From positions 1 through 64,000 of the forward strand of contig JAMXLO010000141.1 of the NCBI GenBank assembly GCA_024280945.1: a stretch of DNA of 64,000 nucleotides, given 5' to 3'. The stretch's first letter is position 1. Each line of letters begins with the position of its first letter. Positions 47,686 through 50,644 of this stretch are shown here, piece after piece. The DNA is from Acetobacteraceae bacterium (lineage in GTDB: Bacteria; Pseudomonadota; Alphaproteobacteria; Acetobacterales; Acetobacteraceae). The notes beneath the pieces are model-generated. The model ran no database searches. It worked only from the letters and a program-made list of their open reading frames with translations, and was not told the origin of the DNA. Position numbers and translations under genes: made by a program.

Positions 47686-48552
47686 ATGTACAAGTACCTC
47701 CTCGTTCCGGTCACCGGTGCCGAAAGCGATGGACCGGTGTTCGCCACGGCCCTGATGGTCGCGCGTATCATGCCGGCGCATCTGGCCTTCCTGCACGTCC
47801 GCCTTGATGTCGGGGCGACACTGACCGCGATAGCAAGCTCGGACACAGGCGGTGGGCTCGGCTACGCAGAGATGCTCGGAACGCTCGAGCAGGAGGCAGC
47901 CGCCCGACAGAAGAAGGCCGAGTTGGCGTTCCGCGACTTCTGTGAGAGCGAGCGCATCATGGTGACCGCGGACCCGTCCGCCGGCCTGCCATCAGCCGAC
48001 TGGCGAACCGAGACCGGCGACGAGCCGTATTGGCTGGCGGAACACGGCCGGGCCGCGGACCTGATCGTGGTCGGGCGTCCTCATGATGGCGAGGCCGTCG
48101 CGATGGACGTCCTGGAAGCGGCGCTGCTGGGAACGGGTCGTCCGGTTCTCATTGCGCCAGCGCATGCGCGCCGAGAACTATCACGGGTGGTTGTCATCGC
48201 CTGGAAGGACCGAGCTGAAGCGGCCCGCGCGGTTGCGGCAGCACAGCCATTCCTGCGCCTCGCCAGCAAGGTGATCATCATGTCGGTCAGCGAGGACGCA
48301 GCGAGTGACGAACCGTCGCGCGAACGGCTCCGACGCGCATTATCCTGGCAAAATCCTGCCGTCAGTGTGCAGTGCGTGAAGCCGAATGGTCGTCCGCCAG
48401 TAGAAGCGTTGTTGGCGGCCGCACATGCAGTGAACGCCGACGTGCTGGTGATGGGGGGTTACGGTCATAGCCGCACGCGCGAGATCATCTTCGGCGGCTT
48501 CACCCGTCGCATCTTATCGCACGCCGATCTTCCGGTGTTGATGGCACACTGA
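47686..48552 (+). CDS. Universal stress protein (UspA family)
   Basis: A 288-residue protein in which the second half is a standard Usp domain: VVIAWKDRAEAARAVAAAQP, then VLVMGGYGHSRTREIIFGGF and TRRILSHADLPVLM, i.e. the ATP-binding G-2x-G-9x-G pattern. The first half (KYLLVPVTGAESDGPVFATA to DLIVVGRPHDGE) is a second, degenerate Usp domain, as in tandem-Usp proteins. The perfect FNR/FixK box upstream suggests expression when oxygen is low, as known for many Usp genes. Followed after 28 bases by a cytochrome c gene. Confidence 0.9.
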   Translation: MYKYLLVPVTGAESDGPVFATALMVARIMPAHLAFLHVRLDVGATLTAIASSDTGGGLGYAEMLGTLEQEAAARQKKAELAFRDFCESERIMVTADPSAGLPSADWRTETGDEPYWLAEHGRAADLIVVGRPHDGEAVAMDVLEAALLGTGRPVLIAPAHARRELSRVVVIAWKDRAEAARAVAAAQPFLRLASKVIIMSVSEDAASDEPSRERLRRALSWQNPAVSVQCVKPNGRPPVEALLAAAHAVNADVLVMGGYGHSRTREIIFGGFTRRILSHADLPVLMAH

Positions 48553-48580
48553 TCAGCATACTGATGGATGATGGGGGAAC

Positions 48581-48919
48581 ATGACCAAGGCGGATGCGCG
48601 GTGGGTTGGTTTGGCGCTTGGATTGTTGCTGGCGGATACCGCCACGCCATCAATTGCGCAGGACCTCGGGGACGTCGCCGCTGGCCACAAACTGGCGGAA
48701 ACCTGGTGCAGTTCTTGTCATTTGGTCGGAGCGCCACACAGCGCGGTCGTCAGCAACGGGGCGCCAACATTCACCGCCATCGCTGCCGACAAGTCCGTCA
48801 CCGCTCTGTCGCTGCGGGCGTTTCTGCAGACGCCGCACGCAAGGATGCCGGACCTGCATCTGACCCGCGAGGAGGTGGACAATCTGGCCTCCTACATCCT
48901 CAGTCTGCGGGCACGCTGA
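48581..48919 (+). CDS. Small c-type cytochrome
   Basis: A 112-residue exported cytochrome c. It has an N-terminal signal (VGLALGLLLADTATPSIAQ), one heme attachment motif CSSCH at residues 43-47 and a likely axial Met89 in HARMPDLHLTREEVDNLASY. The C-terminal ILSLRAR helix closes the fold. Likely a periplasmic electron carrier. It sits between two genes that each have an FNR/FixK box, and is probably read from the upstream box. Confidence 0.9.
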   Translation: MTKADARWVGLALGLLLADTATPSIAQDLGDVAAGHKLAETWCSSCHLVGAPHSAVVSNGAPTFTAIAADKSVTALSLRAFLQTPHARMPDLHLTREEVDNLASYILSLRAR

Positions 48920-48938
48920 ACCGATGGATTGTACGACA

Positions 48939-48952
48939 TTGATCGAGATCAA
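48939..48952. promoter_or_regulatory. FNR/FixK-type box upstream of the hibernation-factor gene
   Basis: TTGATCGAGATCAA, again a perfect TTGAT-N4-ATCAA site, with its centre about 60 bases before the ATG at 49006. A TATTGT sequence at 48974-48979 sits where a class II -10 element is expected. The spacing to the start codon is nearly the same as for the box at 47621. Confidence 0.88.
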
Positions 48953-49005
48953 AGCCCTGCCTCGCACAGCCGGTATTGTTGCAACAACTCAGTGAGGAGA
49001 TGGGC

Positions 49006-49368
49006 ATGGCCCCCGAGGTCCAGATAACATTTCGCGGCATGGAGTCGTCGCCGTCTGCCGATGCGCAGGTGCGCCACAAGGTGGAAGAGCTGCAGCAATT
49101 CTCCGATCGTATCAGCGCGTGCCGGGTCACCCTGGAGACGGGGCATCGCCATCATCGGCAGGGCAATGTCTACAATGTTCGCGTGGATCTCGCGGTGCCG
49201 GGCGGACAGATCGTGGTGAACCGCGAACCTGGCGAGGACCACGCGCATGAGGACCTGCATGTGGCGATTCGGGATGCGTTCGATGCAGCGCGCCGCCGGC
49301 TGCAGGACCACATGAAGCGCCTCGACGGCGTGCGCAAGCAGCACGCCCCGCCGCAATCGGAGCAGTGA
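49006..49368 (+). CDS. Ribosome hibernation-promoting factor / sigma-54 modulation protein family
   Basis: A 120-residue short-HPF/RaiA-type protein from ATG 49006 after GAGGAG. It has the family's beta-alpha-beta-beta-beta-alpha pattern: VQITFRGMESSPSADAQVRH, VEELQQFSDRISACRVTLET, VYNVRVDLAVPGGQIVVNRE and LHVAIRDAFDAARRRLQDHM. Such proteins bind the 30S subunit and stall ribosomes under stress. It lacks the dimerising C-terminal domain of long HPF. The upstream FNR/FixK box suggests that ribosomes are silenced when oxygen drops. Confidence 0.88.
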   Translation: MAPEVQITFRGMESSPSADAQVRHKVEELQQFSDRISACRVTLETGHRHHRQGNVYNVRVDLAVPGGQIVVNREPGEDHAHEDLHVAIRDAFDAARRRLQDHMKRLDGVRKQHAPPQSEQ

Positions 49369-49378
49369 CTACAACGCG

Positions 49379-49597
49379 TCAGCCGAGCGCTTGTACGACT
49401 TCGTCCTCGGTTGGAAAGCGGCCACTCGCCTTCTTCGAGTAAGCAAGCTTGCCATCGACGGTGATTTCAAACACGCCGCCACCGGACTTGCGCAGGGCCA
49501 CCTGCGCCGCAGGCTGCGTCTTCCGGATCAGATCTGCCGCCTCACGGGCGCGCGGTTCGTATCCTCACATTCCGCAGTATTCGATCTCGACTTGCAT
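49379..49597 (-). CDS. SelW-like (Rdx family) selenoprotein, TGA read as selenocysteine at codon 11
   Basis: A 72-residue gene that ordinary ORF calling drops because codon 11 is TGA (49565-49567). Reading that TGA as selenocysteine gives MQVEIEYCGMU then GYEPRAREAADLIRK, and further on GVFEITVDGKLAYSKKASG. The YCGxUGY motif and the later FE-V-GKL-SKK block match eukaryotic and bacterial SelW, where CxxU is the redox centre. ATG 49597 has GGAAGG seven bases upstream and the frame ends at TGA 49379-49381, with no other in-frame stop. A candidate bacterial SECIS hairpin follows the TGA. SelW-family proteins are small thioredoxin-fold redox proteins. Convergent with the hibernation-factor gene. 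If the organism lacked selenocysteine machinery this would be a truncated gene, but the match of position and motif argues strongly for Sec. Confidence 0.88.
49536..49553 (-). promoter_or_regulatory. Candidate bacterial SECIS hairpin of the SelW-like gene
   Basis: In the mRNA the stretch GCGCGCC-CGUGA-GGCGGC can fold into a six-pair stem with one bulged G and a five-base loop whose second and third bases are G and U. The loop starts 19 bases after the UGA, within the 16-37 base spacing known for bacterial SECIS elements. It is a weaker hairpin than the one in the UGSC gene, so I treat it as a candidate. Confidence 0.6.
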
Positions 49598-49675
49598 GAA
49601 AGGGCCTTCCCGGGCTGTGGACACCGAGAGCAGGATGGCAGGAGAGTGCAAACTCCGATAGTCCCCCAGGCCGCG

Positions 49676-50644
49676 ATGACGGATGACCGCCTCAAGCCGA
49701 TGGATCCTGCCGTATCGCCGCGCTTCGGCGACGTGGCGACCCTGTTGCGCGCACCGCGCGTGCCGCCACGCGCCGGGATCGACATCGCACTGGTCGGCGT
49801 GCCGTTCGACCTTGGCACCAACTACCGCACGGGCGCGCGCAGCGGCCCGGCGGCTGTGCGCGAAGCATCGCGAACCATCCGATTGGTGCACCCGACCAGC
49901 CGGATCGCGCCATTCGATCTCTGTCAAATCGGCGATGTCGGCGATGTGGCGATCAACGCCATGGACCTCGCCGCCAGTCTCGCGGCGATCGAGGCCTTCT
50001 TCGAGCGCCTGCAGGATCTCGGGATCACGCCGATATCGGTGGGCGGTGACCACACGGTTCCGCTGCCCATCTTGCGCGCGTTCGCCCCGCAACCGGTGGG
50101 ATTGGTGCAGTTCGACGCCCATCCGGACACGCTGGACACGCTGATGGGCACGCGCATCAACCACGCCACAACGTTCCGTCGCGCGGTGGAAGAAGGGCTG
50201 ATCGATCCGCAGCGCGCCGTTCAGGTCGGACTGCGCGGCAGCATGTTCAGCGCCGACGACGCAAGTTGGAGCCGCGCGGCTGGCATGCGCGTCATCACCA
50301 TGGACGAATTCGAGGCCCTGGGACGTCCGCGGGTGATCGAGGAGATCGGCCGCGTGATCGGTGACGGCCCGACCTATGTCAGCTTCGACATCGATGGACT
50401 GGACGCCGTGTACGCGATGGGCACCGGCGTGCCGGAGGTCGGCGGCTACTCGGTGCGTGACGCGCAGGTCATGCTGCAAAGCCTGCGCGGACGCCACCTG
50501 ATCGGCGCCGATCTGTGCGAGGTGGCACCGATGTACGATCCCACCGGACAGACCGCACTGAACGCCGCAAACCTGCTGTTCGAACTGCTGTGCGTCGTGG
50601 CGGACAGCCGCGTCGCTCAGGCGAGCAACAGCCGCCGCACCTGA
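49676..50644 (+). CDS. Agmatinase-like ureohydrolase
   Basis: A 322-residue arginase/agmatinase-fold hydrolase from ATG 49676. Binuclear Mn ligands are visible: His126 in SVGGDHTVPLP, Asp147/His149/Asp151 in VQFDAHPDTLD, and Asp238/Asp240 in YVSFDIDGLDAVYAMGTG, followed by VPEVGGYS. Such enzymes hydrolyse guanidino groups (agmatine, guanidinobutyrate and relatives) to urea plus amine. DGLDAVYAMGTG differs from the more common DVLDPAFAPGTG, so the substrate may not be agmatine. It stands on the plus strand between two minus-strand selenoprotein genes, and its last 28 bases overlap the 3' end of the UGSC gene. Confidence 0.9.
   Translation: MTDDRLKPMDPAVSPRFGDVATLLRAPRVPPRAGIDIALVGVPFDLGTNYRTGARSGPAAVREASRTIRLVHPTSRIAPFDLCQIGDVGDVAINAMDLAASLAAIEAFFERLQDLGITPISVGGDHTVPLPILRAFAPQPVGLVQFDAHPDTLDTLMGTRINHATTFRRAVEEGLIDPQRAVQVGLRGSMFSADDASWSRAAGMRVITMDEFEALGRPRVIEEIGRVIGDGPTYVSFDIDGLDAVYAMGTGVPEVGGYSVRDAQVMLQSLRGRHLIGADLCEVAPMYDPTGQTALNAANLLFELLCVVADSRVAQASNSRRT

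Follow-up and report, generated by a model that had tools for sequence, protein, structure and literature searches.

A small gene on the minus strand of the window (the whole 64,000-nucleotide stretch of DNA that was analysed) very likely encodes a SelW-like selenoprotein, a small redox protein of the Rdx family in which an in-frame UGA is decoded as selenocysteine (Sec). The gene comprises 72 codons plus a stop (49379..49597, minus strand), with an ATG start at 49597-49595 and a terminal TGA stop at 49381-49379. Another TGA lies in frame at codon 11 (49565..49567, minus strand), and translation through it gives MQVEIEYCGM-U-GYEPRA...FEITVDGKLAYSKK..., which can also be written MQVEIEYCGM-U-GYEPRAREAADLIRKTQPAAQVALRKSGGGVFEITVDGKLAYSKKASGRFPTEDEVVQALG. 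Codons 8-11 read C-G-M-TGA and thus form a CxxU motif near the N terminus; the Cys of this redox pair is the TGC at codon 8 (49574..49576, minus strand), which was invariant in 17 aligned rows. A candidate ribosome binding site, GGAAGG, is located 7 nt 5' of the ATG (49605..49610, minus strand). A first-pass annotation had proposed these coordinates, the minus strand, the position of the TGA codon and a 72-codon readthrough gene, and all of this was borne out by the sequence and by a profile match that runs through the TGA.

To assign the family, the translation was compared with the Pfam profile Rdx (PF10262). The match covered residues 2-70 with an E-value of 4.4e-21 and 75.3 bits (cut-off 22.6). 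Searched in six frames with the same profile, the genome (6.42 Mb in 156 contigs, 99% complete) yielded the gene at E = 9.5e-18 with one TGA inside the match, and no other Rdx match in it reached E <= 0.001. Because the PF10262 match continues through the TGA, a chance reading is excluded. Sequence relatives in the PDB were C17orf37 (2ljk, E = 5.8e-12), Atu0228 (2fa8, 6.6e-8), a SelT/selW/selH domain protein (2obk, 4e-5) and Selenoprotein W (2npb, 1e-4), while rows above E ~0.01 in this list look like chance. The SelW/Rdx assignment made at first pass therefore holds, by the profile matches and by PDB relatives that carry the names Selenoprotein W and SelT/selW/selH domain. From this family membership, the 72-residue product would be expected to have a thioredoxin-like fold and thiol redox activity.

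We collected 72 relatives by scanning one genome per species (GTDB 220). Identity was 62-80% for relatives titled Rhodopila, Acetobacteraceae or Asaia; Rhodopila globiformis DSM 161 (L060), at 72%, has this gene too. By its closest relatives, the source bacterium probably belongs to the Acetobacteraceae, in the vicinity of Rhodopila. The sequence 3' of the TGA was conserved across the 66 relatives that share the TGA, which come from several phyla. Unrelated sequence past the TGA in close relatives had been named beforehand as evidence that would speak against a selenoprotein; the close relatives were found to be conserved there. Two of the relatives, L085 and L086, belong to one assembly in which the SelW-like gene stands at two contig ends, with the TGA in both pieces. 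A further genome of the genus (73% complete) gave no Rdx match, which counts against the selenoprotein reading. Among plasmids, tblastn returned a single distant hit, in Thermomicrobium roseum (41% identity).

We searched the genome for selA, selB, selD and tRNA-Sec and found all of them; a lack of selB and tRNA-Sec had been named beforehand as evidence against Sec decoding. The tRNA-Sec gene has the anticodon tca and scored 75.9 bits, and the next best matches of the model (52 and 47.7) were tRNA-Ser. The selA gene (535 bits) is on the same contig as tRNA-Sec (C113), with about 25 nt between both matches, and selB (414 bits) is on contig C137. In some Alphaproteobacteria tRNA-Sec genes are nested in selB, according to a 2021 paper (PMC8124441), whereas in the window's genome the two are on different contigs. 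Two selD matches exceeded the cut-off (305 and 300 bits). These two selD genes (L020 and L021, on contigs C123 and C120) are long frames of 778 and 759 codons, each with an extra N-terminal part, and both carry the Cys-type motif RCGGCGAK. The tRNA-Sec model was unspecific, with matches at E <= 0.001 in all 14 control genomes and over the cut-off in 5; since it also picks up other tRNAs, we relied on the tca call of ARAGORN for the tRNA and on selA over its cut-off for co-occurrence. The genome also contains a formate dehydrogenase alpha gene (L129, C61:30832-33819) that scored 937 bits, over the TIGR01553 cut-off, and has one in-frame TGA in the context NQARI-U-HSSS, which we take to be the usual Sec site of this enzyme. 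At least one further selenoprotein is therefore expected in the genome.

Co-occurrence of the TGA form with selA was examined in 395 genomes of the order. Rdx was present in 127 of them: 27 had a TGA inside the match, 99 were stop-free (the site itself was inspected in 20 of these loci, all CTQC) and one was a fragment that starts past the site (G349). selA over the cut-off was found in 25 of the 27 genomes with the TGA type, in none of the 99 with the stop-free type, in the genome of the fragment, and in 58 of the 268 genomes without Rdx. Fisher's test gave p = 2e-24 for the co-occurrence, a value that ignores relatedness. The two remaining TGA-type genomes (G282 and G305) showed no selA over the cut-off, which counts against the Sec reading. 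In a sample taken across the phylum, Rdx was present in 83 of 398 genomes and had the TGA form in 2 of the 83, the window's genome and G533.

Two other explanations of the TGA at codon 11 were weighed against decoding as Sec. In one of them the gene is a decayed Cys-type Rdx gene, whose Cys codon mutated to TGA and whose remainder is a pseudogene. TGC and TGT are each one base away from TGA, and Cys codons do occur at the last CxxU position in five of the 72 relatives (TGC in 3, TGT in 2; TGA in 66; the site is missing in one fragment). Against decay, the sequence after the TGA is conserved among those 66 relatives of several phyla. Over the 59 codons past the TGA, comparison with 12 of the 29 loci of the window's clade gave 17-32 synonymous and 11-23 non-synonymous differences (a rough count, with no dN/dS estimate), and synonymous changes outnumbered non-synonymous ones in 9 of the 12 comparisons, contrary to free drift. 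In a tree of 17 Cys rows and 63 Sec rows, one of them from the window, a single branch with support 100/98 divided Sec from Cys, which speaks against a recent local origin of the TGA. With 73 columns, a large number of forks left unresolved, no known root and one family supplying 12 of the 17 Cys rows, this tree is evidence of separation and not of direction. We consider decay extremely improbable.

In the other explanation the UGA is read as a residue other than Sec, either by suppression or because the codon has been reassigned, as it has in some lineages. However, the gene itself ends in a TGA stop, the alternative residue at the site is Cys, which is the residue exchanged with Sec, and the genome has a complete Sec machinery that co-occurs with the TGA form across the order. 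We consider insertion of a different residue very improbable. Decoding as Sec, the reading of the first-pass annotation, was thus supported by the profile, the decoding genes, the conservation and the co-occurrence with selA, with Sec insertion itself deduced from comparison.

To look for a SECIS element, we analysed the sequence 3' of the TGA separately for distant relatives and for the window's clade, with columns counted from the T of the TGA. In the 34 distant Sec relatives, 5-6 base pairs (columns 19/20-24 with 30-34/35) form a stem around a 5-nt loop with an invariant G at column 26, and RNAalifold recovered this stem unaided. In these relatives 87.3% of cells pair, and sliding the partner lowered pairing to 41-53%. 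Cells changed on both sides numbered 42 against 11.7 in shuffles, and the covariation score was 0.525 against 0.151. Two further measures were unremarkable, with 3 both-side-changed pairs (reached in 350 of 500 shuffles) and 10 further pair types (reached in 44 of 500). As the hairpin stretch is coding, the covariation pattern may partly follow amino acid changes.

The window and the 29 loci of its clade differ from the 34 distant relatives in that the stem (columns 16-21 with 27-32) is three nucleotides closer to the TGA. In the window this probable bacterial SECIS hairpin occupies columns 16-32 (49536..49552, minus strand), with a core stem of 49549-49547 with 49541-49539 and the loop CGUGA. 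Among 29 distinct rows of the clade, pairing was seen in 86.8% of cells (85.1% in shuffles), and no covariation was found because the bases are almost invariant. Five of these 29 rows, two of which are the closest relatives, L057 and L058, do not form the innermost pair, and RNAalifold alone recovered two pairs only in the clade. In single-sequence folding the stability of the window hairpin was not above that of shuffles (z = +1.0 and +0.18). No Rfam family reached its gathering score within the window, and ARAGORN found no tRNA there. We regard the window's hairpin as a probable SECIS.

The gene is flanked by an S30AE-type gene (48976-49368, plus strand) and an arginase-family gene (49676-50644, plus strand). 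The row before it (47686-49368) consists of universal stress protein, small cytochrome c-type and S30AE (ribosome hibernation type) genes, a stress-like neighbourhood. No functional link emerged from the neighbours of the window gene. The frame 5' of the TGA stays open as a GTG-started frame of 310 codons (49565-50497), antisense to the arginase-family gene, which could mislead a gene finder at this locus. In 19 of the 72 relatives (L057, L058, L061-L066, L069, L072, L073, L075-L077, L080-L083 and L086) a common neighbour region beside the SelW-like gene was found via antisense translation; clustering of ORFs gave 16 loci. Pfam searches on two of these loci, L057 and L082, placed the neighbour on the opposite strand as a gene of the mannose-1-phosphate guanylyltransferase / mannose-6-phosphate isomerase type. 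The window is without this neighbour and has the arginase-family gene there instead. An NCBIfam scan of 6 upstream frames was of little use because at least one of the frames is an antisense shadow.

From the family and the machinery we infer SelB-dependent Sec insertion into a thioredoxin-like CxxU redox site. SelB with Sec-tRNA(Sec) would read the UGA at codon 11 as Sec, probably helped by the hairpin immediately 3' of it. The product would be a 72-residue Rdx-family (thioredoxin-like) protein, and its C-G-M-U pair may form and break a selenenylsulfide with a partner thiol, possibly glutathione. More tentatively, and as a suggestion that we rate as less likely than not, Sec-type SelW could be a separate subfamily, for which no Cys form turned up, that Acetobacteraceae kept beside the Sec formate dehydrogenase and in which the SECIS hairpin of the window's clade moved one codon (3 nt) nearer the UGA than in other bacteria. 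If this were true, the shifted hairpin would be a natural test of the spacing tolerated by SelB.

Bacterial SelW-like CxxU selenoproteins have been known in print since at least 2005, and the window gene adds one more. Earlier papers rank SelW-like proteins first in abundance among the selenoprotein families of the Sargasso Sea set, with 48 genes and a CXXU motif, a suggested redox function and a noted interaction with glutathione (PMC1088965, 2005), and name SelW-like and SelD as the most widespread families in GOS samples, with 427 SelW-like genes (PMC2398784, 2008). SELENOW-like, PF10262, CxxU, is listed in two reviews (PMC9312934, 2022; PMC13188914, 2026), the 2026 table placing it under 'predicted with high confidence'. 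The first-pass annotation expected standard annotation to overlook the gene entirely, which goes beyond the evidence; both reviews give a protein accession for the bacterial SelW-like family, and hence such genes are at least sometimes annotated. Among open PubMed Central papers, we found none containing both Rhodopila and selenoprotein. As the gene and the readthrough of its TGA are very probably real, annotation as a selenoprotein is warranted. The gene leaves the understanding of the SelW-like family unchanged and adds Acetobacteraceae-type bacteria to its known spread.

Compared with eukaryotic Selenoprotein W (2npb) and C17orf37 (2ljk), similarity extends over 63-70 query residues (E = 1e-4 and 5.8e-12). 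Eukaryotic selenoprotein genes use another type of SECIS, which is located in the 3' UTR. The Cys-type Rdx proteins of the same bacterial family (L027-L056, CTQC) share the Pfam family with the window gene and have 34-41% identity to it in the 20 rows shown, but they have Cys in place of Sec, CTQC and LLR(A/S) motifs and a position on the other side of the tree. Cys-type Rdx requires a Cys codon as the last CxxC position, where the window gene has TGA. With bacterial SelW-like selenoproteins the window gene shares the Rdx domain, the TGA for the presumed Sec in CxxU and a Sec machinery in the genome, and it probably also has their hairpin directly 3' of the TGA. A 2006 survey (PMC1794560) reports very few or no Cys homologs of SelW-like proteins in Sec-containing organisms and lists Alphaproteobacteria with one selenoprotein family, FdhA; the window gene comes from that lineage.
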